Below are positions 4,301 through 63,166 of a stretch of 64,000 nucleotides of DNA, in pieces; the first letter of the stretch is position 1; each line of letters opens with the position of its first letter. This DNA comes from Branchiostoma floridae (Eukaryota; Chordata; Leptocardii; Amphioxiformes; Branchiostomatidae): positions 25,371,899 through 25,435,898 of the forward strand of contig NC_049979.1 in NCBI RefSeq assembly GCF_000003815.2. The letters run 5' to 3'. A program made the translations under genes and the position numbers. The notes beneath the pieces are model-generated. The model did not search any database and was not told the DNA's origin. It saw nothing but the letters and a program-made list of their open reading frames with translations.

Positions 4301-7300
4301 AAAGCTGAGCAATCTCCAAATTTAGTAGCAGTTTTGAACGAGTTTCAGAATGTATTTATTGATAATAAGAATTGTGTATTTTCACTGACATCCGTTGTTG
4401 CAAACTCCATGATAATCTAATGGTGGGATAATCTAAAGCTGGAGGGGTCACCCACCCATCTTAAGATAAAATAAATGAATGAAAAATTCCCTGCTGTTCT
4501 CACTGTTTCCTATCTGAGGAACTGTTGTAAGAGATTTGTTTTCTTTATCTTGACTGCAGGAGGCTGATGCTATCCGTCAGAAGATCGCCCAGATCCAAGA
4601 CGTGTGGCAAGAACTCAGGGTCATTGTAAGTATTACCATTCACAGTCAATAACAAATTTTGAATCAACCATTGTAAACATTCAGAAGAGTAGATATAGGG
4701 TTAATAGTCCACTACTTTTGGTTTTGCAAGTAATCTTCTTTGTTGCAAGTAACTTTTGGCTCTCTGTTAAAGATATTTGTCCAAGGTGGTGTCATTTGTT
4801 TACTTGAAATGTAAACCTTGTTTCTTTAAAAAGGTGTACTGCTGTGAAAGAAATTATGTCCTTTAATATTTTGAAATGTCACAATTAGGTTCTTGCAGTA
4901 CCAAACTGTTTTCTTGTTTGTTTGTTTTTGTTAAGCTGAAAAAGCGAGATGAGGCCCTAGGAGAGTCTGGCAACCTGCAGAGATTCCTGCAAGATTTAGA
5001 CAACTTCCAGGCTTGGTGAGTACATGTCCAACATGTAACCTTCTCACTACTGCTGAACCCCATAGCTAAAGCAAAAATATATCAGAACAAGGGGGTTAAC
5101 CTCCTTGATCAGAATCATGCATCAGACCCGGCGCCCATCTCCACTTCTAAGCCCTGGGCAAGCACTACAACAGGGGTTAGTCCACTAATAGTGTGTTTAG
5201 CTTCCATACTCCATACTTTCTTAGCGGAGAAAGAAGTATGTACCATTTTTAAGAGTCTTTGGCATGACCCGGCTACAGCATCCAAGTGTTCCTTGGTGGT
5301 CTCCCATCCAAGTACCGCACGATGCTTAACTTCCAAGATCAATGCATAGGGTGTATCAACGCACCACGGCCATAGCCATTGGCTGAACCCCATAAGCTAT
5401 AGAAAATTTGTAGCCACAGTATTACATGTAGCTGCAACACCTAACTGCAGTGTGGAATAGTACCAGTTGGTATTGCCCTGAGGAAAGTGATAGACGGTCA
5501 CGGAAATGTCAGCTATGATTGTATGTCTTGTTTGTGAATAAAAATCCTTAAGTTGTTACACAGTGACCTGATGAAATTAGTCACGGGGTGAAATGCATCT
5601 GCAGTGCCCTGTTATGACCTTACATGAAATGTAAGGGAAAGTCGGTGCCGAGTGTTGTGATGAAATGACTTACATCCCTCACCCTCACGACCCAACAGGC
5701 TGACACAGACACAGACAGCCATCGCCTCAGAAGACATCCCCAACAACCTAGCAGAAGCAGAGAAACTGATGACACAGCATGCTGCCATCAAGGAAGAAAT
5801 TGACGGGTACGAGGAGGACTACGCCAAGATGAAGGAGATGGGAGAAAAGGTGAGATATAAAAAAAACTCATGTAGCCACCAAAGAATATAAAATATCGTA
5901 GCCATATCAATTCATGGTGATATAGTTGAAAAGGTGGTGTTCCTGAAGCTTAGCTGAAAAAGTTAAAGGCACTTGAGAACTGTAAATCTTGAAATGATCT
6001 CAGTGCTGTTTTTTTTTCTGGTGACCTCTTCATAAAAAGAAATTATAACACCACGACTATGCCTTTCCATTGCATTAGTATCATTTTGATTTGACTGTAA
6101 ACGTAATACACCATGAAATCCTACTTTCCTCTGGTAAATGTTCTGTTATGTGTTTGACCGCAGGTGACCAATGGCCAGACGGATGCCCAGTACATGTTCC
6201 TGCGTCAGCGGCTGGGCGCCCTGGACGAGGGCTGGGAGGACCTGCACAAGATGTGGGACAACCGACAGGAGATGCTGTCCCAGTGTCTGAACGAGCAGCT
6301 CTTCCTGCGCGATGCCAAGCAGGCTGAGGTGCTGCTGGCCCACCAGGAACACTTCCTAACCAAGCAGGACGCCCCCGTATGTACAAACAAACCTGTAGTC
6401 ACACATAGCTTACCATGGCCTCCTGACCTTCTCCAGACCATGGGTGGAGTTAGTCATGAGTTTGGAGTATTTTGAAATTACCAGAGCACAGGTTATCTGA
6501 GGTGAACCAATCAGAGCCTAGAACATGCACTCATATTTGCATACCAACATGGCGCCCAGCTGGCATATATTAATTTGATAATGATGATAATAGCTGATTT
6601 CCAAGAGTCAACAATTTATGAACAAACTGTAATACATAGATATTACCAAAAATTTAGTCTCTGATAGGCATGGTGATTTTATACTTTTATGTGCTACTTA
6701 TTTTTGTATTGTTCTAAATTTTTATCAAAAGTTGGTATGTGTTCCATGGAATAACAATGAACAGCAGTTCTGCAAAATTGTGTAAGATAGTACAAGAAAA
6801 TGACTTTCACTTGCTTGATTAATCCCAAATCCTTGCAGCAAATCTCTGCTTCCACCGCTCTCCCCAGGTGCCATTTCTAATCAATATTCCCATCCTTACC
6901 CCCCTCCCCATCACAGCGACGCTCGGGTATGGACCAGGTATGGGCTCCTGCTTCCTTCACAAAAAACAAGATGAACTATTACACCTCTAATGCCTGCTTC
7001 TGCGATTCCATGTTGTATGTAATATATCGTTAATTGTAAGTCCTTCCTAATCGTGCTTAATGAAAAGCTTGACAACTTGGCCTGCTAATTAATGCTTGTG
7101 CTGTCTTGCTTCTGCATCTAATGACCAAACACAACATAAAAGCATGACACCATATTGTGTAAAACTCACTTATTTTTCACAAGAAGATTTACTCCTCTGT
7201 GGAAATTCTTAGAACTCCCTGGAGGCGGCGGAGAGTGCGGTGAAGAAACAGGAGGCCTTCATGCAAACCATGGAGGCTAACGACGAGAAGATCAACCATG

Positions 7301-10300: not shown

Positions 10301-13300
10301 GCCTTGTTTTGTTTTTTATTTTCCTTTTGAAGCTGCTCACCAGTTGAAGCCAGGTATATTCATGGCATCTCAACAATACGTTCTCTCTGTTCCTGATGAG
10401 CATTCTTTACCTTGTGATTTATTCTGACACTCAGCCTGGCTTTGACTCTCACCTCCCTCCCTCATTTCCCATTCATTCGTACAGTCTGGCCAGCTTGGCT
10501 ACCTCTGAGTCGGTGAAGGAACGGTATGTGGGTAGCTAGAGGGAAGTCATGCCAACATCAAATGCTGACATTAATGTCTACTAGATGACTTCTGCTTTGG
10601 TGGTAACTTATGGGCTATACTCACTATTGTGTAGCGTAAGCTACAACAACCCTAACTTACCTTTACACAATAGTATCTGTCTGATCTGGTCTTACTGATG
10701 ACTTAAGGTGAAAACGACAGGTATCCGTTATGGGCCCATCAAATGATTTCACCACTTCCTACGTTGCTCATACCTTGAAATTTTCACTGCAGGCCAAAAT
10801 CCGTCACAATGATTTTTAAAACTTCATGATTGAAGATCTTTTTCTGTTCCAATTACAGGAAACAATATTCCGTCATGTTAAAAGTTGTTTGATTTGGTGG
10901 ATTTGTTGATTTAAAAATGAAGAATGGTGCCTTAGTTGGTGATGGAGTGTTCTTGTGGCCACCAGGTTTTCTCAGCTGGAGGGACCACTGTCCGAGAGAC
11001 GGAAAATGTTGGAGGCTTCCAAGGAACTCCACCAGTTTCACAGGGATGTGGAGGATGAAAAGGTACAACATTGCACGGAAAACTTTCAGAAAAGTCATTT
11101 CTAACTGATAGCACATAAATTTAAAAGTGTAGAAATCTAATCCTGAATTCTGCAGAAACCTACCTTAGTAATATGTACTGCACATATGCCATAAGTGTAA
11201 CAAATGTAGTATATTAAACTCTTGAGACAATTTTCCTAATTGTGCTTTTTTTTTACTCACATTTGTGTAAGGATATCATAGCTGACAAGCATGGAAACTT
11301 TACTAAGAAGCAACGCTGTATCTCAGCATTTCTAAGTAGTTAGATTTTCTTGATGCATCCATTTCTGTAGTGTGTGCTTCTTTGTACTTGTACAGTGGGG
11401 GAAACGTGTATTTTTTGTAGTTTGGTTGATTTGTGGAGTTTTGTTCTTGTCTGTCCACAGCTGTGGGTAGCAGAAAAGATGCCCCAGGCCACCTCCCGGG
11501 ACCATGGCAACAGTCTCCTTAATGTGCAGACACTGATGAAGAAGAACCAGGTTAGTACATTGGAAATCAATGGAACCGAATCCCGAGTATGTCAATCAGG
11601 GTTGTAGCCAGCACCCGTCCTTTGATGGTATTGTGACGCTGGGGACGGAAAAAAATGTTGCCCAATCCGTCTTCTGTGATAGACAAAAATCGATATGTAA
11701 AGATGAAATAAAACTGTCTCCCTTGTGTAATTTTCCACCAAAACAGATGCCAATTAATAGATTAGTCTACCAGCAAAATTTACACCTCAAAATGCAGGAA
11801 TTAGCATTTCAGACTGGGTCTAGCTATAGGTTTCAAAATTTTCCTGGGGAGCATGTTCCCAGACCCCACTAGCTAGGAACGTCGTACATTTGGTACTCGA
11901 TAGGATTCAAAATGGAGGGGACGGAAAATGATTTCAAGCTGGCTACAACCCTGATGTCAATATTCATTTGCCTTTTGGAGGACTCTTTCATTGAGTTTTG
12001 TAGACCACACAAGTCAATTTTTGTGCCGTCTCAGTCCCTGAGAGCGGAGATTGACGGACACCAGCCGAGGATCGACGAGATTTGTGAGCGCGGACAGGCC
12101 ATGGTGAGCAGGAGCCACCCCAGCTCGGACGCCATCGAGCACCAGATAGAGGACATGCAGAACCAGTGGGCGGTCCTCATCGACGAGGTGGACGCTCGCA
12201 AGCTGCGCTTAGAGGATTCGGAGAAGGCACAACAGGTGAGGCTGAAAGCAAGGAACAGGTTTATTCCTGTATTGTGAGATGTGAAGCTTCCAGAAAATGT
12301 CCCAGTGAGACAACATTGCAACAGTTTTGTGTTTCTCCAACAGTATTACACTGATGTGGCTGAGGCAGAGGCATGGATGAGTGAGCAGGAGCTGTACATG
12401 ATGGCAGAAGACAGAGCAAAGGTGGGGAACTGTCCCATTATCCTCTCCTTGTTTTCCATGCTTGCTTTACACGACCAGCATGTCTTGCAGTTTTCTTCTG
12501 TAGGCCTGTTCCGTAACAAGCTTTAACTTTTTCCAGGATGAACCAAGTGCAAACGCCATGTTGAAGAAACACGAGGGCATTGAGAACACCATCGAGGACT
12601 ATGCGCAGACAGTCCATGAGCTGTCTGAAACCAGTCGCAACCTTATTGCAGAAAACCATCCTGAAAGGTATAGATTGTCACTTGTGTCATTATGTGTCAC
12701 TACTTGTGATCAAATACTGTTTGATCCTTACAGTAAGGATACCTCTTATACAATTGTTTCCACATTTTGCCCAGAAACTGAAAAGGATGTAGGGGCAGTG
12801 GGTTGTTATGTGCTGTATCTAGGGCACGGCATTGGAGGGTGGAGTCCAGCCCTCTCCTTCCACCGCCTTGTCAGTTACTTGTTTTTACACCTCTGTAAAG
12901 TTAGGAAAGTCATGTAAAGTGCCTTTCCCAAGGGTACAATATCGGTAGCATGTCAAATTTTGAACCCAGAACCTTTGGGCTGTTGGCCTAATGCCCTACT
13001 TGTTACACTGACACGACAAAACTAAAAGCTTGACACACACGTCTGTTGTCACAGTGACCGAATAGCGACACGACAGGCACAGATTGACAAGCTGTACGCG
13101 GGCCTGAAACACCTGGCGGAGGAGAGACGGGGCAAGCTGGACGAGACGCTGCAGCTCTTCCTACTGAACCGTGAAGTGGACGACTTGGAACAGTGGATTG
13201 CAGAGAGAGAAGTGGTGGCAGGATCACATGAGCTGGGACAGGACTATGAGCATGTTACAGTAAGCACAGTTTTTATACCTACAATTTTTATTGCCAGACT

Positions 13301-16300
13301 GAATTAAAACATGCAAATATTTGAAGTTTATGGGAAACCACACTCTGAACTACTGCTTTATTCCATCAGATGTTACAGGATCGCTTCCGAGAGTTTGCGA
13401 GGGACACGGGGAACATCGGGTCCGAGCGCGTGGCAGCGGCAAACGAGATATGCGACAAGTTGATTGACCAGGGCCACTCTGATGCGGCGACCATCGCAGA
13501 ATGGAAAGACGGTCTGAACGAGGCCTGGGCGGATCTCCTGGAGCTCATTGACACAAGAACGCAGATGTTGGCAGCATCTTACGAGCTCCACAAATTCTAC
13601 TATGACTGCAAGGAAGTCCTCGGCAGAATACAGGTAATCTGAGCCTTGTTGTGCATATGATTACCATGGTGGTAACATAAATGACACATAGCTTTTCCCT
13701 CTATTGTAAAGCAAATTTCTTACGGCTGAATTAACACTTGTTCTACAGGAGAAGCAGCAGTCCATGTCTGAAGAACTTGGCCGTGACGCTGCCAGCGTTA
13801 CAGACCTACAGAGGAAGCACACAACGTTTGAAGCCGACATTCAGGCCATTGGATCGCAGGTCGTCGCAGTCCAGGAGGATGCCAACCGACTGAAGTGTGC
13901 GTACGCCGGCGACAAGGCCAAGCAGATCGAACAGCGCGAGGCGGAGGTGCTGGAGGCATGGAACAACCTGAACATGGGTGTGGAGGGCCGCAAGGTCAAG
14001 TTGGGCGACACCCTGGATCTTCATCGCTTCTTCAACATGCAGCGGGACCTCATGCTCTGGATGGAGGGGATCATCAGGCAGATCAACACAGATGAGAGAC
14101 CTAGGTGGGCTTGTCTGACAGAAAACACTTCTTTTGTCTATTTTCGTTGTCTTTTTACATAATTCTGCATGTTAGTGTGTTATATCATAAGCTCTCTTGA
14201 GTTGAAGTAGTAGTTTGTGTTGTTTCCAACAGAGATGTGTCAGGCGTGGAACTACTGATGGACAACCATCGCAGTGTGGAAGCGGAGATCAATGCTCGTG
14301 ACGAGAGCTTTGCCGAGTGCATCCAGTTGGGCAACAGTCTGATTGAGAGGCAACATTATGCCTCCAAGGATGTGGAGGAGAAACTGGTGCAGCTGAAGGA
14401 GGAGCGGAAGACTATGGTGGATGCCTGGGAGAGAAGATGGGACTTCTTGCAGATCAGTGAGTCCCTCCCTGTTCCCTTAAGTTATGCTAAATCCATCCTG
14501 TCTAACCACCAGCATATATAAGTTTATTTCACGTGTTGTAATTATAAAACCAAAAAAGTCATGTAAGCTTTGGTAGTAGGACTTCTGAAGTGGTGGATTT
14601 TGATACAAGGCACAGGTCACTTTGAATATGAATTTTAGAAATCTTTTGTTTAATCCATAAGTCAAATTGTCAAAAGGTTAAGATAGTGAGGAAGAAATCA
14701 TGATAAGACTTAAATCAAATTAGTTGTGCAAGTTTAAGAGACTGGTGTTACTTTACTATTCCTCTTCCATTTTTAGTGCTGGAAGTGTACCAGTTTGCAC
14801 GGGATGCGTCACAGGCCGAGGCGTGGCTTATGTCCGTCCACGGATACCTAAACAAAGAGAATCTGGGAGTATGTACTTCATGCTCATTGATGTCTGTAGA
14901 TACATGTATGTCGCTGTATGTTGTGTAACGCTATACTTTCTCAATCAGTGCTTGAGGTATACCAGTTTGCTAGAGATGCCACGCAAGCAGAGTCGTGGCT
15001 AAGTGGTCAGGATGCTTACCTCGGGAAGGACTACCTTGGAGTACGTATGAACCTGTCTTAGATGTTGGGTATGGTGTTTGTAGACCCAAAGTGCCTTCCA
15101 CATAGTTAACTGTGTAACAATCTACAGCAATGCTTATTACCATTGATACCCTGAAATTCCTCAAAAGCAGTATCCTTAAGTTGTCCCCATGAAGGGTGTA
15201 ATATGTATGTCGGTTTGCTGAAGGTTAGAAAATGATGGCAGACCATGTGTCTTTAAGTAAGACATTGTGCTGTGTTTTATAAAGTTGAATTGATGTTTAT
15301 GAATCAATACAACGGCTTTGACAACAAACATTATGCTCTTTAGACGAACATCCTGAAGTTGTGTTTTGTCCTTCAAATGTTCTTTTGAAAGTATTACTTT
15401 CATGTGTTCTATTGCAAGTGTTCTAACAGCAATAGAAACAGCCACAAAGATGTGGTCTTGTTAACACGTTCTCTTACTAAACACTGTTCGTTTGTCCCCA
15501 TCAGGATTCCGTGGCTGAGGTGGAGAAATTGATCAAGAAACACGAGGCATTCGAGAAATCCACGGGCACACAGGTGGAGCGCTTCACAGCCCTGGAGAGA
15601 CTTACCACCGTACGTGAACCTTCAGCCTTTTCTGAATGTCCATTTCGATGCAGTTTGGGTTATGCATTGTAGTTTACATTTGTTTTTGGAATAGGAAAAT
15701 ATTGAATGTTTTCCCTTCCTCTTACCAGCTTGAGCTACGGGAAAAGAAGAAGTCAGAGGAAGAGGATTTCCGCCGCACACATCCAGAGAGCCCCAAAGCT
15801 GTGTCACCACCAAAGTCTCCAGAAAGGTAACAAACCGCATTACCATATGCAGACCATGTACAAAACTGGAGCACTATCCAACCCCAACCCCAACCCCACC
15901 ACACATTTCCCAAACATAAACAGTGTCTTGTAGGAAGGATGAGAGATTTCCTAGCTAGGTTTTGCAATAAACAACACAATACATAGTCTTTTCTCCACAT
16001 GTACAATTGGATTTTCAGTCAAAAGAAACGAAATCAATAAAGTGAGGTATTTGTCAACAGAAGAAGGAACATGTAACTTACACAGGGTTGGACAAGTCAT
16101 TTGCCCGATTGCCATGGGTAAGTAAAACCATTGATTCAGCAAGTGGATACTCTTGCCCAAACAGGCTAGTGCAATTTTCTTGGATGCCCTACATTAAAAC
16201 AAATAAGGAATGAGACATTTGATGTAGAAATGTTTGGGGAAATCTACAGATCGTTTCCCCATAAGAATATCATATTGATGTCCATCAAAAGTATGGTCTT

Positions 16301-19300
16301 TTCAAAATGGATTTAACAACATGCAAGAAATGACATTTCAGAGGATAAACAAACTCAGAAATTTAACATAGCAAGCATCTTAAAGCTCCAGATTCTTTCT
16401 TACTGGTTTGGGTAGATTTTTTACATACTTGTCCTCTAGTGCTAGGGGATTTATTTTATGGAATCTTGTCCAACCCTGTAACAGTTGCTGGTTATAAAAT
16501 GTAACATCCATCAACCATCCATTTATTTATGATTTATTATTCACATTTCAGTATTGTAATTGTTATGTTTTTTTTATGTTTTTGTTTTATGATATTACTT
16601 TTTTGTTTTGTTTTACGTTTTTGTGTTGTATTATTATGTTGTTATCTCTGTGTTTTATTTCTCTGTCCTCAAGATATCCTTAAAACTTGTGCCTTATTGA
16701 GATCAGCCATTGGAGACAATGGAAAGATTCCAATTACTGGAACCAAATTAAAAATTCTAGTCTAAAGTACCCCCCCCCCCTCCCCCAGGTAAATTGTGAT
16801 GGCTTTACAGAGCTTAACATAGATCAGCAGCCTGCAAATCAGGAGCCTCCTTCAGTTGGTTGGAGGTTTTGCAAGCTGCTGGTTCTCCATCTAACAATCC
16901 CCCCAAAAAGCCCAGGTCAACATAAACCTACCTCAATATACCATACATACTAGCCATGACTCGGACGACGAGGCCACCTGGCAGGCTTCGCCCGAACCGC
17001 AGGTTGTCCAAGCCTCCTTCCAGCAGCATGCGCTGGAAACTGACCTTGACTCTGCCGAGGTCGCGCAGCACCACGTGTCGTTTGCGGAGCCCGGGTCCCC
17101 GATGTGGGTTGAGGTGCACGACACCCCCGTGGATGACGAGCATGACCCCTCCTCACACCTGGATGTTTCCACTGACATTGATACTGACCCTGAGACTAAT
17201 GTTGACATTGGTGCCAGGTATACTTCCCATGATTTCAACAACCGTCACATGGAGACCAGTCCTTAGCAGGGCTTGGCCAGGCAGCATCAATACAATACTT
17301 TTGGATACGTGCAGAAATCATTCCCCTATAATGCAAATGCTTTGTTTTCCTCTTATTTTTTATTGGTGCTGCCAGTGCCACCATATTTGACCATGCTAAG
17401 GAATGGACTGCATCATTCAAGTCGCTAACTTCTCATTTAACCTGTCCAATAACAAGGCAAATGAATAACAGCCTGAAGATCATGCATGACAGAAACACCT
17501 TCATCACCAAGCATGCCAATAAATTAATTCAGGCCTGAAGAAGCAAACTGCCCTCACAATCATAATAACTACTGTATATGCATGCTGCTGTCAATCATCA
17601 TCATCATAACACACAACATATGTACCCTGTCCTGCGTTTTCCATCTATTCAGTACTTAACATATTCATCCAGATAATACAAGAGACAATCACGAACATGG
17701 TAGTGGGAAATCCTACGGACTATATGTTACGCAAACCAACCTATCTAGCAGCCCTGTTCTATCCTGATTATTTAAACAGTAGCATTAGATCGTTGGAAAT
17801 AATTATGAACCTAATATAAATTCTGCTGTCCTTAAGAATATAAATCATATCAGTTTCTTATTACTGAAGAAAGTCTCTAATTTTCATAAAATATAGATTC
17901 TGAAATATGTACAAGCTTTTAGAGAATTACTCTTTAGTTTGGCCAATAATCTGTAGTTTGTGAAGATCTCTTTCAGCTTGTTATGTCTGTCTGCTTGTAA
18001 TTAGGGTTAGGTAACACTGCTCTATGCTTGGATGACATCTAGTAATGCACTAGTCGTCTAGTTGTAATCCTATTGTACATTGATATGATATTGAAAGTAC
18101 AGTGAATTGTTTGTATGATTTTTTAGTAACCGATATGCATCTCATGCCAATTGAAGCTACTGTGGGTTCCTCAGAAGAAAAGTCAAAGTCTCTACAGACT
18201 GATTTGTCTGTTTGAGCAGTGCTCAGTTGCATGTTACCTATCTGATTGTCTGGTGCTATTTTTCAACAGGGAGGAAGCCCAGGCCATTGTGGATGGCGAA
18301 GTGGCTGAGCCTGCTAAACCTTCCCCAGACCGACAGGTATGTTCCTTTTTTAAATGTGCTCTTAAGACAGAAAAGGACATTGTGGCACTTCATGCGAGTT
18401 GATAACTTCTTGAGGCCTTAGGGGCACTGTATCTATCCGGTATGTGCATTCATCTGTAACCTCACAGTAAAATGTAGGACCAAAGGTGTCAGTAGCCTTG
18501 GATTTCTCCTGCCGTTTTAAAACAGTTGTTTGTGTATGTTGCAGCAGCCCGTAGTGAATGGCGAACATGAGGCAGCACAGGAAGTGGCACCGGCTGAACC
18601 CGCTGTAGTGAACGACAGCGGAGAGCCAGCCCAGGCAGAACCTACCATGGAGGGCATGCTGCACAGGAAACATGAGTGGGAGGCTCATGCCAAGAAGGCC
18701 TCCAACAGGTACACGGTCATAGTACTCGTGCAAATCTAGTTCTATAGTCTGGTCTACTCCACACATTGGCAGATAATCACAATTTCATTACCTGAGGATA
18801 AAAAAAAAAGGAAAATAAGGCAACCTGAAGAAGTCAACCTGGCCATCCATGTGGCAGAGTTTATTACACAATGATGAAAGCATCTGACTGAATATGTTGC
18901 TGAAGTTTTTGCCAGGAGAAAGTCTTGAAGCTTGTTGTAAGAACCTTATTAACCCTATCCAATGACCTACCGCATGATACATGATTGATGATACTATTCA
19001 CGATACAGAAAGGGTGGTCTGAAAATGCCTGATTGATTATACACCAGCTCATTGAGATGTGCATATATTAACCACCCTCCCCTTCCCAGGTCCTGGAGCA
19101 CAGTTTACACTGTCCTACGTGAAGGCATGCTCAGTTTCCACAAGGACCAGAAGGCCTTTTCCTCCAATGTCACCTTCCATGGGGAGGAACCCGTCACAGT
19201 GGTGGGGGGCACCTGTGAGGCAGCTACCAATTACACCAAGAAAAAGAATGTCTTCAGGCTTAAGTGAGTGGCCCTTGAAGACCACATCTGAACACTAGCA

Positions 19301-25700: not shown

Positions 25701-28700
25701 CTTATATATCATATCCTTTTGCACAAATGGTATTGGCAAGTTGGATTTGCCTACTGATCTGCATACTGGGAACTGGTAATGTGAAAATTGATTTGACACA
25801 GGTCCAAAATACCAGATTATGACATAATGTATATACTGATATAAATTTACACCAGGTATATGCTTATTTTGAGACTAATGATGCAGAAAGCCAAAATCTA
25901 GCACTGGAAATTTAGACTTGAAATCAGAGACACCTTTGAAATCAAAATACTTCAGTTTTCATCTCCTAAATTCAAACATGACCAAAGTGACACCTGGGAA
26001 TAGCAAAACTTCTACACAATAAATATTTCAGGTGGGGAGTTTTGTTATTTCGGGTACAATACAGGTAAACCCATGTACTGGGACTGGTACGTTGAGGTAC
26101 GCTGTCCTAGTTACAGGTTTCATTTTTCAACTAACACGTTCTGACAAAATATCACAGTAACCCACATAGTCTTTCTCTGGTAGTTTTACCATTCCCTCAT
26201 TCATTCCTCCGTTCTCTCATTCACTTGCTCCTTCCCATTCTTACCTGTCTCTTGGAGGAGACCAGTTCAGTGTCCAGCTGTCTGAGAAGTGCCTCTGCGG
26301 CCGTGGGCGAGGCTGAGATGGCCAGAAGGTCCTCCTGGTTCATGTACATACCCCGCGGGGCCTTCCTGCGCCCACGCAGGGGCATGTGGCGACTCGTCTT
26401 CATGGACATCTCGCTCTTCATCGGCCCTCCTGCACGCATCACTCCTGTTCTCCTAGAGAAGCAAGAGAACGGAGCACTACATTACCACCAGCTTCGCTCT
26501 ATTGAAGACAGTTCTGCCCCTATTGTGTTGCCGAAATGCTACTTTAGTCTAACAAAAAGAAAGGTAGCTTTAAACGCTATCAATACGAGATACAAAAAAA
26601 ATGTGTACACGTGAAATCAAATGCACCCTGTCTGCATCTTCCAATGGTGAGGGAACATACCCCTGTGCAGTGTTTTTGCGTATACTACATTTACCAATGA
26701 TAAGAATTCCACTTACATTCCGTAATTGGGTGTTCTCTGAACCACTTGAGTTCTAATACAGATGTACAAAGTACAGAATGCAAGTGCAAGGTCAAGTCAA
26801 ATTCATAGTGCATCTCAAAGGTGTGAGACGCCATGTTTATATTTCCAGCCTTGGGTGTCATGTCGTCGACTTGACAACATTACTGTATAGAGTTTGGTTA
26901 GACATGAAGAAGTACATATTCAGATGGATACTAATCTAAAGCAATGTAATCCGATTTGATCCAACCTGATCTGATCACGGCACAAGCAATGAAGCTCAAG
27001 GTGATTACACGTTGCAGCCAGGTGATACAGTTCAAATGTAGATCGTCAAAACATGTACAGAACTGCTGTACATTGCGACAATGTCAGTGTAGGAATTACA
27101 CATATACCTATATGTTAGTATACATAAAAACACAAACACAGACATTGATTACAATGCTATACTTGTTTCTAACACTAAGTAACGAATATTGGCAGCCTGC
27201 AATTTCAGCAACTCAAGTTCCAACTCAAGACTAATAGAAGGGTTTTCAAAAGAAGAAGACACAGCCGAACAAGCAATTCTTTCAGTTTCAGTTTATGTGT
27301 CGCAAAGGTCGGGTGTAAAACCACTTTATCAATACTTGATATGTCTTTCTTGACACCTCAGGGTGGAGGCGTTGCCTTATCATGTCGTATGTAGGAACTG
27401 GGGCTGTTGCAGGCTGCCGAGTGATTTTCACCTGGATGGAAGAAAGCCTCCATACCTCCAGTACTGGTAACACGAGTTACAGACAGAGCCTTTAGGGGTG
27501 GAGTGGAGGTGGGAGCTGGTGGTCTGGCAGTTGGCACATGCACCACTCTCCTTCCCATTGTTCTGTGGAGGAAAACAATGCCTGCTTGTACTCAGAACAG
27601 TATGTCATGCCCTTGAAGAGATTCATTAGTCAAGTATGTTTACAGTTAATACAGTTTTTCATCAATCAGTGACTGTTATTAAAGGTAAGCAAACGTACCT
27701 CCAAATTTTCGATGGCTATCCAGTCCATCTTGCTCACGGAGTGACCTAGTTCTTNNNNNNNNNNNNNNNNNNNNNNNNNNNNNNNNNNNNNNNNNNNNNN
27801 NNNNNNNNNNNNNNNNNNNNNNNNNNNNNNNNNNNNNNNNNNNNNNNNNNNNNNNNNNNNNNNNNNNNNNNNNNNNNNNNNNNNNNNNNNNNNNNNNNNN
27901 NNNNNNNNNNNNNNNNNNNNNNNNNNNNNNNNNNNNNNNNNNNNNNNNNNNNNNNNNNNNNNNNNNNNNNNNNNNNNNNNNNNNNNNNNNNNNNNNNNNN
28001 NNNNNNNNNNNNNNNNNNNNNNNNNNNNNNNNNNNNNNNNNNNNNNNNNNNNNNNNNNNNNNNNNNNNNNNNNNNNNNNNNNNNNNNNNNNNNNNNNNNN
28101 NNNNNNNNNNNNNNNNNNNNNNNNNNNNNNNNNNNNNNNNNNNNNNNNNNNNNNNNNNNNNNNNNNNNNNNNNNNNNNNNNNNNNNNNNNNNNNNNNNNN
28201 NNNNNNNNNNNNNNNNNNNNNNNNNNNNNNNNNNNNNNNNNNNNNNNNNNNNNNNNNNNNNNNNNNNNNNNNNNNNNNNNNNNNNNNNNNNNNNNNNNNN
28301 NNNNNNNNNNNNNNNNNNNNNNNNNNNNNNNNNNNNNNNNNNNNNNNNNNNNNNNNNNNNNNNNNNNNNNNNNNNNNNNNNNNNNNNNNNNNNNNNNNNN
28401 NNNNNNNNNNNNNNNNNNNNNNNNNNNNNNNNNNNNNNNNNNNNNNNNNNNNNNNNNNNNNNNNNNNNNNNNNNNNNNNNNNNNNNNNNNNNNNNNNNNN
28501 NNNNGTTAACCTTACTCCGGAAGGAGGCAGGGTGGGGGGCACGATCCACGTAAGTCTTGACCTAGTTCTTGCAACTCTCGCAAGAACTAGGTCACTCTGT
28601 GAGCAAGATGGACTGGATAGCCATCGAAAATTTGGAGGTACGTTTGCTTACCTTTAATAACAGTCACTGATTGATGAAAAACTATATTAACAGTGTGATG

Positions 28701-49150: not shown

Positions 49151-52100
49151 TTACATTTCTTCGTCATTTCCTTCGAGCTCTTTTTCAACCTCGTAGGCTT
49201 CCATATTCCTGCGATTCCAGAAAAACATTGCAAGGCAAGCACAGAAGACGGACCAAGAGGCTAGAACGGTCTTTAGGATGGCCATGTAAGTGCTGAGTAA
49301 GGCGTTGTCATAGAGAAGACACGCCCCTCTTTTGTCACAGTTCCGGTCCCACAGCAGACACGCCTTGTCCACCAGAGCACCGTAGACAAGTGGAGCCGGA
49401 ACAGAGCCTACATGGGGTAGAAAAAAGTATGTGCATATCAATCAATTTGAAATATCTTTGGAGAAAAATACGTCAAAGCAGGTACTAGTAAAACAGTAAT
49501 GCCAAGTTTCATTCCCTGTCGTCCATTGGAAATAAGTCACGAAAACCTTTACAATTAACATTCAAAATATTAACGATGACACAGACGAGAGGACACCTAC
49601 CGAGCAGTACTCGAATGCTAGTGTCAATGCCGAGAGCAAATGATCGTTGATTCTGCTTAACACAGCTGGGGGAGAAAAACAAAGCATGAGTATTTAGGGA
49701 AATCCCCTTCAGCCGTCACTCAGAGGTGGCAGGCTTCGCCCGTATTACCAATATTGCCTTGCGAGTAGCATACGCAGGGACATCCAATGGCGAAACCACC
49801 TGTCTGGATGTACCCTGCTTTCTCAACCGTCACCCTAAGTTCCTGAACGCCCTGCTTATAAATATTGATGAGCTTAACCTTATATATGCGAGATCCCCTT
49901 TGAAAACTGAAAGGTCTATTCTCTGATTGGCTGACAGCTGGTTTGTGGCAACGCCCACAGGAACTAAAAGTGACGGTTGAGAAAGCAGGGCACATCCAGA
50001 CAGGCGGTTTCACCGTTGGATGTCCCTGCGTAGGAGGATGTGCGAGTAGGTCAGAGACACATGACGTTCTAGCAAATAGACAGATGTGCCAAAACAACAG
50101 ACTGTCGATGGAGTGAAAATGTGTCTATTCCGACATTGTTATCCTTGCAACTATACAAATTAGATACATTATGATACCGTTTTTCTGAATCCCCCACAAA
50201 ATCATGTTGGCAAAGTCAGTAGTTAGTTAGCAGTATTGCAATACGGCTTCGCTACGGCTTGCATTTATTTTGGGTCAAGGACACTGGGTCACCCCTGTTC
50301 TTCTTGATTGGTTTAAGTTCATAGGTTTGATGTTTGAGGCTAACGCCTGAATCTCCCTCATACACGGCACCATCCGAAATGATGAATGCATGCAATCCCT
50401 GACAACATGTGCGAGATGTCGACTTCTATTACTGTATCATAATGGTCAAATTGCCGTTGACAAAAATATTTGAGGAGATTTTGTGTCCATGACGATGTGG
50501 TCTTCAAGAAATAACACCTGGTTCTGGTCATCTGGCCCCTTTGTTATCACATCATCATCATCATCGCGGGCTGCTTCCCCAGACCAAGTCCGCCCTCTCC
50601 TTCCAGACATCTCTCTCCCCCATAGCTTTCTTTATATCGTCGACCCGCAGCCCCACATCACGAGCAAGCTGGTCTATGTAGGTTAGGGTCTCATTGATGA
50701 GTTTCTTCTTCCCATAGACTTCTATGTTATAATTCGTGGTTTACACGGGCGCGTTCATAATGAAGTTACGTGAAATTTTAGCAGATTTATTCTATGTTGA
50801 GCACATTTACCCTTTATCGTGGGAAAAATTGCTAACGTCAAATAGATACCAGTGTTTTTTGTATAGCAATTACAAACTACGATTAGTCAATCCCCACAAA
50901 AGGCACCTTTTCGCTTCTAGTGTACAAGCGCACCACTCAGAACCTAGGACTGTATACCTCCGACCTAGCGCACGTCTGCAAAACTTTACCTACTAATTTC
51001 TTCAGTTACAAACAAGCTTTTACTAATCTGACTTTTGAGATCAGTTCAGCTGGCTAAAAGGGAATTTCTCACCGCTAAAAACACACGTCCATGCAGCCGT
51101 TTATTTTTTGGCTCGGATCTCTCAGTTTAGGTACATGTACCCACTCGTAGTAATACAAATGTACATCAATGAGACCTTAGTCGAGGTCGCTCAGGACAAG
51201 GAGGTTAAAAATCGTGATTTTTAACCTCCTTGCTCAGGATAACTATAAATACTTCACCTCAGCATGATAACCACTCTCGGAGCGTTATCCATGCCAATCC
51301 CCATCGCGAAGACAGCCAGGAGAAACATCGCCAACGGAAGCAGAGTACAGCCGTTGGAGCAGCGACCTGAAGTCGCCGAAAACCGCTCACCTCTCGTCTG
51401 GTTTCCGACATGGCAGTGACACGATGTGTATTGCTGCGTACAGGTGTTCAATAAATGTTAGCTCTCACATGCATGCAAAAATCGGGACGGGGATCCATCT
51501 TATCAAGTTTTGAGATGATAAAATGTCAATTTAGATTGTACTTTCGAATTGTGTCCGCTTAAAATCATTACTATTAATACAATGTTAAAATTATAAAGTA
51601 CATGTAATTGACATGTATGATATCACAACAAACCATACAGACCTTATTAACCGAAAGACATACTCATATCGACAAGACAAGAGCCTTCCCAATTGCTTCA
51701 TCGGAAACGGAAGAAAACAGAAGAATTTTGAAATATCACTTAAGTCTTCTTTCGAATAACTGCTGAGTGCCGACCGGCACATGACCTTACGGAAGTGTCA
51801 TGTGACCAACGAGTCAAACACGGATGGCTGGAAGTCGGTATCGTCCCCCGTCCTAGTTGCAATTCGTCAAGAATAACGATCCCCTGAAGTAATGTCGACT
51901 GACCTGTTCCTGTGAGACGTTCCGACATCCCGCGAGACAAGGCGAGAAGTACTCCACACCGTTCTCTCCGCATACGGGGTTGTAAGCTGGCGGGCAGGGG
52001 CAGACCTGGTTACAGGGGGACTCCAACGCATCTACACCGACAATCGGGGTGCGGGGCATCGACCTATCACAACATTCAACAGGGCCATCGTCTCATTGCC

Positions 52101-55100
52101 ATCCGTATCATTTAGAGTGGTCACGTACTTACAATTTCCCTATCCTAGTTTAGGTCCCACTCTGCTGAAGGCTCTGACTCAATAGCTTATATTTGCCCTT
52201 GGGACAAGTCATAAGAAATTGTAAAATACTTGCAGGGCTGTTGAGATTTTGAAGTTTCCCTTTCACACCCTTAATAGATGTGAAAAGACTGGTACATCAC
52301 TGTCATGGGCCAAGTTTCGTTCCTCCTAAGCCAAGGGAAATAATTCTTCAAGGAGCAAACCGAATATCTTTTCACTAGCCTCTACCAGGCTCCGTGGATC
52401 GGTAGAATCATTATCTTCACGTGAGGAAACGTACTCTTCTGGCCGGCTAACTCCCCTAGCGTACTATAGACTCTATTTTTCCAATTTCTACAATTAGACC
52501 ACCGATCCACGAAGCCTGGTAGAGGCTATCTTTTCACCATGTCCCACTAATATCTAGGCAGCTCGCTTTACGAGGACAAAAAGTTAAGTTACGACATGTA
52601 CAGCGACAATGAACCTATAGCTTTGAGTATCATTACCCATGTGCAATTTCAGCTTCCAATTTATATACTGATTCGCCTTTCGTACAGCCCTGTTTAGACC
52701 AACAATGTCCTTACCCGTTCCCATACGGAATTGTCACTCCTGCCATGTTGGTGTTTGGGCAGCGAACGAGGAAGGCAACAGGCAGCGCGAACAAAAAGGC
52801 GGTTGCAATCGAAACAAGCTTCAGAGATCCGGTCACCCCCATCTTGTACTTCTTCATGATGACTCCTCCCATGACTGACCCAAGGATACCAGCTAGAACT
52901 ATGCTTAAACCTTGAAGACATTCAGGGGAGAAATACATACATTTATTTATCTATTCATTCATTCATTTATTTATTTGTTCAGCTGTATACATGGATGCCC
53001 AACTCGCCATAGGCTATTGCTAAGGGCTAATCCTGGGAGAGAAAATACATGTTACATATAAAATCACTAACATTAGCTGGGAGACAACAATGGTTACAAA
53101 TTTATTTATTCATTTACATCGAATATTACAATATGTACACATTTAAGATCACATAGTATGAGGTAGTACATGTACTGACATTAAGCAACAGAGAAATACA
53201 TATTTACTACTAGTAAACAGCTAATGCGCTAACGCAGTTCTAACCTCTGATTGGCTCCTGAGAGAAGAAGTAGAAATCAAAAGAAAAAACCAGCAGAAAC
53301 AATATGTTTTTTTTTTCTGCTACAGAAAAGTTTTTCCGGTGGAAAAAAAGACGTCCTACCTGTGACGATGGAAGCAGAGCCGGCCGTCATGGAGAATTGG
53401 TTTTCAACGTACTTGATGCCAAACGTGTTGAGACCAGTGATGCACATGTTGACAGAGATGCCCGTTAATACCGTGAACATGTATGTTGGATTTGTGCACA
53501 GGACCCAGACCTGCTTGAAGAAGTCGAGGACTCCTAGTAATCCTTTAGCCTTGCTCGCATCCTCTTCTCTCTCCTCTGGTACACTTTTGATCCCCTTTTC
53601 TATGGTTTCGGTCTCTTTGGCTACGTGTTTAGGGAAGATACGAGGGTTTTTCAGAAAGAGGGGTCCGTAACGCCGAATTTAAGCGACATACCATGTGACA
53701 TAACTACAAACTATAAAGCCTTCTATCAATGTCCAACAAATTAGACTTTTTTTGTCGTGATTTTTGTGACTGTGTGCCATCGGGGCTCCCTCAGATGGGA
53801 CACAGGCTGGTCATTTTCTTGCGAGCGTCGCCTTTTTGAACACCAGCAGTACTAGTAAGTAAGGGATTCTCCTTTAGGGAAACATGGACAATTCAGCTGC
53901 AACCAGAGATGTTCATTGCAAAGTTATAGAGCTCTCAGCCCTGCCTTTAATTTGAGACAAAAAGACCCACTTTTTATGGATAGAAGGTGTTGAAGTATGA
54001 GTTATGCCCGGTCTTGCTTCACAGTTACTACTAAACTAAGAATCACTTCTAACGAATAAACAATCCGCTCTCGAAAGAAATAACTCTTGGAGAAAAGTGG
54101 GCGGCGTCAGAGATGCATTCCTTGCGTATCGTGCTTTTTTAAATTAACTACTTTCTGCAACAAATCACGTGACGAGATCATTGAAAAGTGATCCTTAAAA
54201 ACACTAAATGCTGGTTGACTTCAAGAATCGATTGCAAGATTTTCTTTCCATTCTATTTTGTTGGATAGTTTCTTTTACCTGATATTTTCTCAGGCAATCC
54301 CAGTATCCACGGAGCAGTCAAAACTACGGCTACGGCAAGTGGAGGAAACCCCAGCCACCAGGCACCCAGCCATCGTGCATCTTCTGATCCGTCTGAAGGG
54401 CTGGATTGAGCATTTTCATTACGTGCATCGTAAGGTCATATTCTGACTATAGTATGTGGTCAAATCGAGCGTGTGCTCATTTGCATATTCGTGACGACAT
54501 AAATGCGACAGTAACCCACAAACATGGAGACAGCTATCTGCATCTCATTGAATGAGGCACAGGCGTTTGCAAAAATCCTAGAGATTTCTAACCCTCTGTC
54601 CAGAGTTAATTGAAGACGAATATCACTTTATGATTGTATGTCCTAAATATTCTGATATACGACATTCCCTGTACACAAGGCTGTCATCTTATACACAAGG
54701 ATTTATCTCAATGGACCTGAAGTGCAAATTAAAGTACATTATGACATGTGACAATCCCTGCATGGCAGATATAGGAAATATATCAATGAAGGTTTGGATA
54801 TTAGAAACTCCTCAACTGATTGTAAAAGCTTCCAATGATTATAAGAAGCTTATCCCATACTACAACTCCTGTATTAGTTAAGCTATAGAACTGTAGTTAT
54901 GTAGATGCCATACTTTGTACCTCGTACAATTGTTGTGCAATAAAGTTATATATCTAAACTCTATAAACATCTATAGTGTGTAACGTTATAGCTGGCAGAA
55001 GAGAATGCCAGAAAAATACATGCAATTAAGGAGCAAACTCGGGCTGACAAACTATGGAACTCTGTCAATCACCAACTCCACACAGAATGACTTGCATCAT

Positions 55101-58100
55101 CACACACCTAGGCATGCCCCTACTCTTTTTCGAAAGGTGTGGTGGGTTCTTTAGCGTGCTTGGGGTGTGACTCTTCTCAAATATGGGACCTCCATGTAAC
55201 GTCCTATCCGAGGGACGTCTCTAGTCGAAGCTAGGTACATTGTACTTACTTTCACCTGAGTGAAGTCGTGCAAAGTCGTCACAAGATCGGTGACACGGCA
55301 GGATTCTCGGGCCTGAGCCCACGCAATCACAATCTCTATAAGTTATAACGCTAGATCACCTTTATCCGCGGGGTAACCTATATCCGTCATTTCTTCAAAC
55401 AGGGTATCTCGGTATGTTAAGTCGACGGACGGTGCAATATTTTAAAGATACAATATTTTTATGCAGTTTGAAACCACCGTCCTTTGACTTGATTTTCCTA
55501 AAATACCATTTTTTATAACAACGGATAAAGGTTATCCCCGCGGATAAAGGTGAACTTGCGTTATATACGATATACAGTAGTAACAAGGGCATTGTGGAAT
55601 GCATCCTTACGGAATACTCCCAGGTTTGTCGAAGTCGATATAAACCCTCAGAAGCTGACCAGTGACAATAAACCCTAATGCTCCGGCTGCTCCTTTGAAG
55701 GCATTAAGAATACCTGAAACCGAGAAGGGACAAAAATTGGTTCATATTTAAAACATACGGGAGCGTTAAACGTTTATTTAGAGTGTGTTTAGGTCAACAT
55801 CTAGTAGTATATTCTCACATCTGCACCGGTGCACGTGGGGGTGTAGCCCAGGTCGGGCTCTGACGCCATACATTTGTCAGATGAGACTGTCGGATTGGGG
55901 GAGGGGTACCTGCCAGTGTTTTTGAACCAAAACATAGGTTCTCGTTATGCCGCTAAATGTCAGTTATACCACTTCCTTCCTGGTACCCCCCCCCCCCCAC
56001 ACACACACAAACTCACGAATTTACCGTCATGAACGGTAAGGAGAACCATCATGGCAACATCACTCAACGTTAAGGTGCGCTCCCACCGCACTTGTGTCAA
56101 GCTTGCGTCACTGCGTGGTTCGTTCACTGCGTCACTGTTTTGTTATTTTCTCCGATTTTTTATAATCTAGATAATGCGTAATACGCAAAAGTATGACTTA
56201 GAAGACCACAAAATACACAAAAAGAAAGACAATTCGTCATTTATCTCTGAAATTCGTTGAGTATCTTTCGAACCCCGGAGTGACGCAAGCTTGACACAAG
56301 TGCGGTGGGAGCGCACCTTTAGTGTTTACAGTGAACAACTCACCTAGATAAAACCCGCCCGAGCCCGCTGGTGCAGTGCTTTCGAGGATGTCACTTCCAA
56401 AGACGTAAATGGTCAGACCTCCGAGCGCGTTCAAGCACTGTGCTATGAGTACAATAATGACAAACGAAAAAACAATTATGCCTAGCCAGTGGTGAAGGTA
56501 CCGTTATAGCTAAGGGCACAAATCGCCGTACGTGCAAATACGTGCTGTCTATGTGCAAAAACGTGGGCAATCTTTTGAGGTCCGTTAGTGGTAATACCCC
56601 CGTCACAATAGGCGAAAATCTACCGGAAGACTAGTCTACGAGCTCTAAATGACATTTTCGTGAGTAAGACGTCCGGTGTTCTCACGATCATCTTGCGATT
56701 TTTAGGGATCGCCGGCGATTTTCAGGGGTCGTACGACGGTCGCGGTGCAGCCAAACATGTTCTTAACATAAGCGACAAGTCGCAGGAGATCTCTGAGATC
56801 GTAGAGATCGTTACCGAGTCGCAGATCGTGCGTGTAATCCGTGCGTACCTTACAAGGGTATCGTTTGACATTCGATTGATAGTCGTGCGTCAATCCAGCA
56901 CAGACCTGGTTATTAATCATCGAGCGCAAATCGGATGGCGAACGCCCGTCAGTCGGGCGACGTTCGGACGACGTTCGCCCGACGTCCGTTAGTTGACAAA
57001 TATTGAATGTCTGGGAATGTGAGGGTAATTCTGAAATTGTGGCCCCTGTCGAAGTATGCAGGCTGCCTTTATGAAACAATTTCTTTTCATTCGTCATTTC
57101 TATTATGCCCGCGCATTCCGTTGGTTAAAATGATTACGACAACAAAAGAAACAACATTTATCGATATCTTGCCTTTCTGCGAGGAACGTTTTGTGTTACC
57201 TTGTCCGCGGGCAAGAGGTCATGGGAGGTTCATTATCATTGTTCACAGACGATCGCACGAGCCACGCTTATATGTGACGGGGACAGTCTTTGGGCGAAAA
57301 ATACGCAAGACCATCCTAAAATCAGCCGACCTTCCTGCGATCGCAAAGTACGTCCGAAGATCGTATATAATGTGACGGGGATATAAGTACCGCCTCCTTA
57401 CGAGCTCGTAGGGAATCCGACGAATTTGGTAGTACGCAGACACGCCGTAGAACTTTACGTGCAGACAAAACTTTGTGTGCCATTGGGCTGCGGATTGGCC
57501 TCCCCGTACGTGCCGTATGGGCGACGCGCCTGCCCTGTACAGCCTGAACATTTTCAGAAATACGTGGCGGACGTGGCCTTCCCAAAAAACGTACGGACAA
57601 ATTGCACGTACGGCGGGTTGTGCCCTTAGCTTATCACGCATTTATAGAGCTTATCCTGATTTTTGTAAGAATTCCAAACATTCCCTGTTTGTTTATTTGT
57701 TTGTTTTTTCGTTTATTGGACATTCCATGTCAAAATGGATGGTAAGCTTGTATGGTGGCCTTGTCTACACTCGGCAAAATTATTGTGAATAAATCAACTT
57801 CTTGTGCCAATTCGAATCGACTCGAATTGATTTTCTCTGACTGTGAAAAGCCCGGTTCGGGATAGAATCGAGTTGATCCAATCTGGATTGGATCTGGTAA
57901 ATCTGCCAGGAGATTAGTCCTCGGGAAGGACTGCCTCGGCTGCTTGGTCCTGTTTGGCTGCCGAACAGATTCTCTGTCGGACATGGCAAGGGTAAGTACA
58001 GAAGAGACTATAAAACGAAGAGAATGTGATTCAGGACTTACCAAAAAGAAAGACGAAAAGAAAGTCAGAGAGACCTCGTTCCTCCTTAACGCAGGCCGTG

Positions 58101-59422
58101 AAGGTGGTGTTAGATGCGGGGTCACACGTCACTCTCACCGCCTCGCCATAGTTGTGCGGCCCTACGATGAAATGTGGAAGACTGTACAGCAAATGCCCCA
58201 GTCCGAGCAAGAAGGTGCCCGCTGCTATCCCCTGGATTTTCCCTCGCCTGGTCTTGACAATGAAGGTGAGCAGGAGAGCTGCTACCGCGTGCGCCACATC
58301 GTAAATGGTTGACACGAGGCCTAGAACAAAGTTAAGTTTAACTTTAAGGTTTTGAATTGTTTCACGTCATTTTCTTCAAAGATTGATCATGGTAAGAAAC
58401 TTCACACACGGAGGGAACTGTCCGTAGGGAAGAATCCTCCAAACAACCAAACCATGCCAAAGGGGAATTTTCTTGTATTGCTATGACCATGAATTAAAAC
58501 CATGAACGTATTTGCAAAGTCACCTAAAAACGTTAACCAAGAATAGGACAAGGATCGCGGACCTGCGAACATTGACCGATCGCGATCTCTAAAACTCGCT
58601 CAATGATGGAGAGAACACTGCCGAAATGGTCATTTGGTGGTCTCGATCTCATACACGACGGCAGATTGATTTTGCTGCTGTGCACGTGACAGGTGCATGA
58701 CGAAGGCAGCGTATAAGTTGCTCAATTTTGGCTAGTATGGAAATTTAGAACTATGGTATTAAGGCCACAGCAAATATTGTTTATGGATGACGCCAGAGCG
58801 ACCATTGATCTTCGCCTGATCTAGAAAGAAAATTCCCCTCTGGAGTCAGTAAGCATGACTAGAAAGTAACAACATTGGATAATCGTGTGGTAGTAGCCTT
58901 GATTGACATTAGTGAGGAACATTTTGCCATGACTTGTAGCAGTGACTAGAGTTGTCAACTTTTAGGTGATACCAGTCTACCACACTAGTGTCACTTTGTA
59001 CACCTCTTAAATATTGAATAAAAAGATTTGGTGGCTGTGATGTCGTGTTTTGCCGCTATAACTCTTGTTACAACGTTTATGTGGTTTATTCTGAAAATCT
59101 ACATATCGTCTAAATATCAAGATATCTTGTTTTTATTCGCCCTCTCTCAATCCTTTTGTAGTCTGCAGAGGATGCCATCCATAAAATCTACCTGCAGTGC
59201 CTTAAGTCTATGAAATACGGATCTAACCTGACTTGGAGCTTGGAAGTTGATATCGTTTCTCGATTGTAGAGATGGTGGCTCCTATCATACCTCCATGCGT
59301 CATGTTCTCGGCCACGGTGCAAATAACCAAGAGGACCATCATTCCCTGGACGGTGCCAAAGAACTGAAAATAATCGGGCCTGAATTTTCCCCAACCGAAC
59401 CTCTCCTGGTAGACAGTGTCAT
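49151..59422 (-). CDS. Organic anion transporter (SLCO/OATP family), 5' exon missing
   Basis: OATPs are 12-helix plasma-membrane carriers that take up bile salts, steroid conjugates, thyroid hormones and similar organic anions. Minus-strand exons: 59228-59422, 58042-58320, 56344-56442, 55618-55713, 54279-54392, 53360-53620, 52715-52910, 51904-52063, 51258-51433, 49601-49665, 49151-49407. After two leading bases they give 632 codons including the stop. Family signs: MIGATISTIEKRYQLPSS, a DARWLGAWWLGF motif in the sixth helix region, FSMTAGSASIVTG, a Kazal-type Cys-rich loop, FALGIDTSIRVLLGSVPAPL and CLLWDRNCDKRGACLLYD. The usual length is about 640-720, so only a short N-terminus is missing; it may lie beyond the LINE or outside the window. 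The subfamily cannot be told by eye. Confidence 0.92.
49769..50041. mobile_element. Long-arm foldback element with 8-bp duplication
   Basis: Arms of roughly 70 bp (for example TACGCAGGGACATCCAATGG on the left, with its complement at the right end at 50012-50031) fold back on each other. They continue through CTGCTTTCTCAACCGTCAC. GCGAGTAG is present directly outside both ends (49761-49768, 50042-50049). It lies in a transporter intron. Confidence 0.75.
51197..51232. repeat. Perfect 17-bp stem hairpin
   Basis: CAAGGAGGTTAAAAATC is followed after 2 nt by its exact complement. The AAGGAGGTTAA word also ends the 5S-derived SINE at 5092. It lies in a transporter intron, just upstream (in transcription) of exon 51258-51433's donor. 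Confidence 0.7.
51904..52063 (-). other. Kazal-like Cys-rich loop exon of the transporter
   Basis: This exon encodes SPCNQVCPCPPAYNPVCGEN followed by GVEYFSPCLAGC, the large extracellular loop between helices 9 and 10 in OATPs. Further cysteines follow in the next exon (CHCH, GRCSNGC). It starts with one nucleotide completing Gly and ends in phase 0. Confidence 0.9.
52376..52528. mobile_element. 153-bp TIR element with 9-bp duplication
   Basis: The inverted ends TAGCCTCTACCAGGCTCCGT and the complement of CGAAGCCTGGTAGAGGCTA are flanked by TCTTTTCAC on both sides (52367-52375, 52529-52537). Same family as 47301-47346 and, by ends and duplication length, 32118-32538. Transporter intron. Confidence 0.85.
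54585..54950 (+). pseudogene. LINE reverse-transcriptase C-terminal remnant and 3' tail
   Basis: The plus strand encodes LIEDEYHFMIVCPKYSDIRH and continues to YNSCIS-stop near 54881, the His/Cys-rich tail usual at the end of LINE reverse transcriptases. The 3' tail ends in ACAATTGTTGTGCAATAAAG, seen again at 48798 and 63852. The element is a short 5'-truncated copy in a transporter intron. Confidence 0.6.
56073..56318. mobile_element. Harbinger-like MITE
   Basis: The arms AGGTGCGCTCCCACCGCACT and the complementary right end ending GCGCACCT (about 40 bp, nearly perfect) are flanked by TTA (56070-56072, 56319-56321). A 3-bp TTA duplication fits PIF/Harbinger. Transporter intron. Confidence 0.75.
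56597..57380. repeat. GC-rich repeat with CCCCGTCACA ends
   Basis: CCCCGTCACA at 56597 and TGTGACGGGG ending 57380 form inverted ends. An inner block around 57266-57330 (GCTTATATGTGACGGGGACAG, GCGAAAAATACGC) recurs in reverse near 48718-48785. The several open frames here are short and overlapping and are not taken as genes. Confidence 0.45.
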
Positions 59423-59841
59423 CTGACAAATAAGAAAGGCAGAGGAAGAACAACAACATCTATTATCTGACAAAGCGCTTTGATGAGATACAAACAATCG
59501 ATTGTATAACGGTTTAGCAACATCAACTCTTATAATTCCCCCAGATATCTTAAGACCTAAATGCATTAATCTGCTATCCCTATGAAACATATGAGCTTGG
59601 CCTCTGGCCTCCAATAGCCTTATCATGTATTTGCAGCAGTATTTGATAGGCTGCCGATGATTTTGAATCGCAATGTTGTTCTGCAAATTTTGTATTTGTC
59701 AACCTGTCATGCTACGTCGTCATCAATTGTGTTATCATCTATGTACGTGGTATTTTAATGTCATCATCGAGGAAGAGTAAAGTAGATCATCTAGTCTAAT
59801 GGCTTTAGAATAAACATTAACATCAACATTGACCGAAATAT

Positions 59842-62800: not shown

Positions 62801-63166
62801 CCTTTGTAATTTATGAAAGGTGTCACTATCTGGGGATGCGTCTAATATTTTCTGCAGGCTGTCGATCTCACTGGTAAGGAGTGATTCAGACTTTTTACTT
62901 TGTTTCCGTTTCCAAGACGAATATCTAATTATCTGACCGCGCACGGCACACTTGAACGATTCCCATACCATGTGAGGATTGGCTGAGCCATTATTAAACA
63001 AAAAGAATTCTGAAATAAAGCTAGAGATCTCCTTAAAAAATGTTGGATCATCTAAAAGTTCTTGATTGAATTTCCAGAAGCCAGGCCCTCTTGGTATTTC
63101 AGACCGAAATATTAAAGCCGGTGCTATCGAGGCTTTCTCAAGAATGTCTCGTTCACATGGATATCT
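59842..63166 (-). mobile_element. L1/Tx1-like non-LTR retrotransposon, 5'-truncated
   Basis: A minus-strand LINE lies just upstream of the first visible transporter exon. Its 3' end is A-rich (AATAAA then TTATATAATAAAAAAAAAA at about 59842-59875). The 5' end is cut within the region joining endonuclease and reverse transcriptase; no endonuclease domain was recognised beyond 63166. No clear target-site duplication was found. Confidence 0.85.
60272..63166 (-). pseudogene. LINE ORF2 reverse transcriptase, truncated and frameshifted
   Basis: The frame is open for 964 codons below TAA at 63167-63169 and has no convincing start. The N-terminal part (PRGPGFWKFNQELLDDPTF) is the linker following the endonuclease in L1/Tx1 elements. 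The RT domain shows KSPGLDGLPTDFYKTFF, NWRPITLLNCDTRILSKC, FIADFQKAFDKIRQDFIL, GVRQGCPLSPYLFILGAEI and the catalytic YADD at 61697-61708. A C-terminal zf-RVT finger follows (CEYCNEDEETVFHLFFHC). The family's tail (FWRQVEDWFFINTGEHLNLN, IILLGKHFIFKNRQ) continues in another frame at 60043 to about 60350, so one frameshift near 60330-60370 breaks the protein. Truncation and frameshift make it inactive for autonomous movement. Confidence 0.85.

Follow-up and report, generated by a model that had tools for sequence, protein, structure and literature searches.

Mutually exclusive exons are a known kind of splicing arrangement, and the closest described systems are those in which adjacent homologous exons swap one segment of a protein domain, as in the IIIb and IIIc exons of Fgfr and the M1 and M2 exons of PKM2. 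The PKM2 exons are of equal length (167 bp) and share 60% identity at the protein level (as given in the accessible part of PMC2764345), whilst the amphioxus Fgfr exons IIIb and IIIc have been tested in minigenes (accessible part of PMC5703972). The two exons of Branchiostoma floridae considered here, E1 and E2, share this arrangement; unlike Fgfr and PKM2, however, what they would exchange belongs to the joint of the spectrin tetramer, namely its helix A, and the swap is predicted from genomic sequence. Within the spectrins, tetramer strength likewise varies by isoform, with alpha-II spectrin binding more tightly than alpha-I. That choice is made between genes and on the alpha side, whereas the choice between E1 and E2 would be made between exons and on the beta side. 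Mutually exclusive exons are also found in the alpha-actinin family. Alpha-actinin, encoded by a gene of the spectrin superfamily, has splice forms that may differ in binding, according to the accessible text of PMC4435478. There, the splice difference lies in the C-terminal EF-hand region, in contrast to E1 and E2, whose difference lies within a spectrin repeat. Similarly, vertebrate beta-II-spectrin is alternatively spliced near the tetramer site into long and short C-terminal forms (accessible part of PMC7757025). These forms change the C-terminal region and the PH domain, whereas E1 and E2 change helix A of repeat 17 itself. No published counterpart, with alternative exons for repeat 17 of a beta-spectrin, was found in the open-access literature, subscription papers lying mostly outside the search. 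The reading preferred here, which we consider probable, is that E1 and E2 are tandem-duplicated exons that are spliced mutually exclusively and that tune the affinity or kinetics of tetramer formation.

The exon pair and its host gene

The window, i.e. the whole 64,000-nt stretch of DNA that was analysed, starts inside the gene, of which 25 exons were outlined by eye between 1382 and 15826, the list being incomplete. Both exons are 92 nt long and lie where an earlier note on this DNA had placed them, on the forward strand at 14777–14868 (E1) and 14949–15040 (E2); each is preceded by AG and followed by GT. The common upstream exon (14233–14456, forward strand), an open frame with AG/GT borders that aligns to 3lbx_B and 3edv_A, codes for the end of repeat 16 and ends in phase 1, with ATC A standing before the donor GTGAGT; the TG with which both E1 and E2 start completes an ATG, the first Met of E1 being split in this way with the previous exon. 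The shared phases, 1 to 0, are those that had been claimed, both exons ending in phase 0 ahead of a common downstream exon (15505–15609) that carries the end of the A-B loop and helix B of repeat 17. The next exon in the outline (15729–15826) holds the end of the repeat 17 region and the start of the C-terminal linker. The introns upstream of, between and downstream of the pair measure 320 nt (14457–14776), 80 nt (14869–14948; the length stated previously) and 464 nt (15041–15504), respectively. E1 and E2 are equal at 20 of 30 whole codons, which agrees with the earlier count, at 21 of 31 residues if the split codon is included, and at 58 of 92 nucleotides. The locus thus shows what characterizes a mutually exclusive pair, namely neighbouring homologous exons that agree in length and phase and are flanked by plausible splice sites.

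Sequence, frames and Pfam matches assign a variant of helix A to each exon. With E2 in place, residues 1–138 of the local protein match 3lbx_B, the human erythroid beta-spectrin in the tetramer complex, at 150.1 bits; with E1, the same residues do so at 149.9 bits, and this match with either exon bears out the proposal that both encode helix A of repeat 17. An alpha-spectrin (8iah_8) heads both match lists by whole-sequence score, in which several repeats are summed; its best single stretch reaches 79.3 bits with E2 and 74.3 with E1, below 3lbx_B. Pfam spectrin-repeat scores are nearly equal for the two exons (48.1 bits for E1 and 47.0 for E2). Downstream of the pair, a PH domain is found at 19037–19264 (PH_9, Pfam), together with an open frame that has a lysine-rich tail, ends at 20139 and carries no Pfam match of its own. 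The layout of a tetramer-site repeat 17, a partial repeat of helices A and B followed by a linker and a PH domain, is present. Because of the 3lbx_B match, the PH_9 domain and the frame with the lysine-rich tail, we identify the host as a beta-spectrin gene in which the pair codes for helix A of partial repeat 17, the tetramer site.

Elsewhere in the window, exons of an organic anion transporter of the OATP/SLCO family occupy 49154–59459 on the reverse strand (three of four matched pieces pass the Pfam cut-off), with a Kazal-type domain at 51856–52092 within that gene (Pfam). A 964-codon open frame at 60275–63166, also on the reverse strand, resembles a LINE-type element in having reverse transcriptase and zf-RVT domains, and a 750-base run of N at 27755–28504 represents an assembly gap or a masked stretch.

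Residue changes at the tetramer joint

Residues of the pair were mapped onto human beta-I-spectrin such that exon residue i corresponds to human residue 2008+i, with 3LBX as the reference structure; all 13 helix A positions in Tables 2 and 3 of the accessible part of PMC9082959 carry the residue named there. Eight of nine core positions (the eight listed in Table 2 of that source, as accessible, and the helix A Trp) carry the human residue in both exons. The sole exception is human Gln2028, which E2 retains as Gln but E1 replaces by Val. In the human protein, Q2028A costs 1.80 kcal/mol, and its Phi of 0.39 is the highest core value listed for helix A (accessible part of PMC9082959). The same part of that study gives association constants for three surface mutants, S2019A, A2023G and A2027G, of 49, 53 and 24, compared with 207 (all in 10^4 per M), i.e. 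reductions of about 4- to 9-fold. Four of the ten positions changed between E1 and E2 therefore coincide with sites where human mutants alter alpha-spectrin affinity (2019, 2023, 2027 and 2028), and the other six (2026, 2029, 2030, 2033, 2035 and 2036) fall outside the mutant set in the accessible text of PMC9082959.

The changes are unevenly spread: the first 17 residues contain two differences and the last 13 contain eight (Fisher exact P = 0.007; boundary picked post hoc). The claim that they cluster in the A-B loop half thus survives as far as the latter part of the exon is concerned, but not for the loop alone, as five of the ten still belong to helix A, in its C-terminal half. These five are consecutive (2026–2030) and, judging from the human study, probably lie in the part of helix A that docks early on alpha-spectrin. 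MSVHG is specific to E1 and SGQDA to E2.

Helices A and B pack together against alpha-spectrin's N-terminal helix, forming the head-to-head joint of the tetramer, and the two predicted isoforms would be distinguished solely by helix A and the beginning of the A-B loop in partial repeat 17. The swap would alter one core contact (Gln2028) and the stretch 2026–2030 whilst keeping the other core contacts. Since all core contacts except 2028 are retained and the changes include 2026–2030, binding is expected to persist and its affinity, or its on and off rates, to change. The residues exchanged belong to that stretch of the disordered beta tail which appears to dock first on alpha-spectrin, so that exon choice could affect not only the affinity but also how fast tetramers form. 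Which form should bind more tightly was also considered, and a prediction was given up, as residue matches and helix propensities point both ways: the human residue is found in E1 at 2019 and 2023, in E2 at 2028 and in neither exon at 2027; matches to human beta-I number 17 of 31 residues for E1 and 16 of 31 for E2; and summed helix propensities are near equal (9.27 for E1 and 9.55 for E2).

The alternative that survives best accepts that the exons are mutually exclusive and supposes that the swap serves some other end, such as the choice of alpha-spectrin partner, another ligand or a modification site in the A-B loop. The changed stretch does hold the six sites outside the human study, along with a core contact, as this alternative would allow, although human mutants affect alpha-spectrin affinity at four of the ten changed positions. 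We regard such another purpose as unlikely, whilst noting that it has the splicing part in common with the tuning of the tetramer joint, and the probabilities given to the two overlap. On the tuning reading, both exons would be used, the choice between them would be regulated and the two products would differ in affinity.

Splice sites and the possible basis of exclusivity

At the level of the predicted transcript, E1 and E2 are frame-compatible alternatives, and inclusion or omission of both breaks the frame. Double inclusion leads to a TAA at 15000–15002, exactly as had been predicted, and double skipping also shifts the frame, to a TGA at 15516–15518 within the common downstream exon. The reading frame at least thus enforces exclusivity, both or neither giving a premature stop. 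As these stops come early and more exons lie downstream, the both-in and both-out mRNAs are likely to be subject to nonsense-mediated decay (NMD).

This arrangement also lends itself to a different account, in which the both-in or neither product is a regulated unproductive mRNA that controls the amount of beta-spectrin, with the protein difference secondary. Both outcomes do shift the frame to early stops with further exons downstream. However, the protein difference is patterned, the first half being strongly conserved and the second diverged, and a device that only turned the gene off would not require both copies to be under coding constraint. Control of amount is accordingly an improbable explanation of the pair.

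Exclusivity had further been attributed to the shortness of the intron between the exons. This part of the earlier note is not supported: in the same gene, an intron of 85 nt (12259–12343) and five of 110–128 nt are predicted, and the best branch-point candidate in the middle intron, A14928, is at a distance of 59 nt to the donor and of 20 nt to the acceptor. A steric barrier arising from the 80-nt intron is possible, not compelled.

All sites of the pair have GT-AG borders, and they were scored with a matrix built from 23 donors and 23 acceptors of the same gene. The E1 and E2 donors, at 0.8, do not exceed even the weakest of the 23 others and are outscored by 42 and 43 of the 97 GTs in 14457–15504. 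Only the exon side is weak (GGA before GT), whereas on the intron side GTATGT (E1) ranks above 20 of 23 and GTACGT (E2) above 17 of 23 other donors of the gene; the idea that weak donors signal regulation was therefore dropped. Among the 68 AGs in 14457–15504, two outscore the E1 acceptor and six the E2 acceptor, each of which ranks above five of the 23 gene acceptors. As scored, the splice sites of both exons appear plausible and say nothing on regulation.

Competing RNA structure was considered as a means of enforcing the choice and is not supported: a single palindrome was the only inverted repeat found, and the middle intron has no stable fold, being less stable than its shuffles (z +1.46). 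Candidate regulatory motifs in the upstream intron include a single TGGTGG, at 14591, and a tract of CTCTTCC ahead of E1. None of 33 tests (11 motif sets in each of three introns) was notable, the lowest P values being 0.017 and 0.033 for PTB-like motifs in the downstream intron, and 0.057 for YCAY and 0.067 for TGGTGG in the upstream intron.

Age of the duplication and implications of the pair

In tblastn searches of the first 21 kb of the window, the E1 and E2 peptides find each other with E of about 1e-10 in each direction, and no place besides the partner exon is matched better than E 0.002. By the method of Nei and Gojobori, pS between the exons is 0.93, which can be read only as 'saturated' since twofold sites are treated crudely, against an overall pN of 0.22; the latter divides into 0.05 over residues 1–17 and 0.43 over residues 18–30. 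In neutral simulations of 45, 60 or 80 substitutions (600 runs each), no run keeps 20 of 30 residues in an open frame, nor does any of 2000 runs with 121 substitutions. With 30 substitutions, 0.3% of 600 runs do so, but their mean pS is only 0.30. Saturated synonymous sites, coupled with the failure of neutral runs to keep the residues, argue that the duplication is old and that both copies have been held under protein-coding constraint.

The two copies have apparently not diverged to the same extent. At E up to 0.001, 15 PDB sequences match the version with E1 and 25 that with E2, and alpha-actinin 2 (1quu_A) is matched at 26.1 bits with E1 versus 41.5 with E2. This weaker likeness to generic spectrin-type repeats suggests that E1 is somewhat the more derived copy.

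It could be supposed from this that one exon is an unused relic of the duplication and the other alone is spliced, as E1 resembles generic spectrin repeats somewhat less closely than E2 does. Synonymous change is saturated, yet frame, borders and 20 of 30 residues have been kept, and no neutral run with 45, 60 or 80 substitutions (600 for each number) retained 20 residues in an open frame. A relic is thus very unlikely, and this explanation was rejected on the combination of saturated synonymous change and conserved frame. An assembly artefact, i.e. two haplotypes or a misplaced tandem duplicate, has a negligible chance of being correct and was rejected on the divergence of the exons, as, although the assembly is imperfect (the window has one N run, 27755–28504), 34 of 92 nt differ with synonymous sites saturated, and the direct repeat (14775–14828 and 14947–15000) starts at the AG before each exon and stays within the exons, whereas allelic copies would be far closer and would take in the intron.

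No third copy of the exon scores above the shuffle maximum in the five stretches searched (the three introns, two of them also reversed, in three frames each), and no remnant of one was found in the downstream intron. The middle-intron branch-point region at 14922–14936 (TGTGTAACGCTATAC) recurs at 80% at 15111–15125 in the downstream intron, with an AG within a few bases; no exon-like remnant was found in that intron, and the recurrence is probably due to chance. When 29 exon peptides were compared with positions 1–21000 of the window (E up to 0.05, with matches up to 40 bases from the query's own exon dropped), no match outside the listed exons revealed another tandem pair, the exon list being incomplete and three of the 29 peptides (5699, 18521 and 19880) being in the wrong frame and hence uninformative. 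The next closest relatives of E1 and E2 in the gene are segments of earlier repeats at 6302–6370 and 12341–12412, with 33–52% identity.

E1 and E2 are natural variants, both products of evolution, of a tail that folds upon binding, and between them the joint is altered but most of its core is kept. They also offer a ready-made experiment, in which ten residues differ and four of these lie at sites already measured by human mutation. If both exons are used, the strength of the spectrin network would be settable by splicing on the beta side. That exon choice in this one beta-spectrin gene sets the strength and lifetime of the network joint cell type by cell type is a more tentative proposition, to which we give slightly less than even odds. 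If true, exon choice would here fill a role that vertebrates appear to give to gene paralogues.
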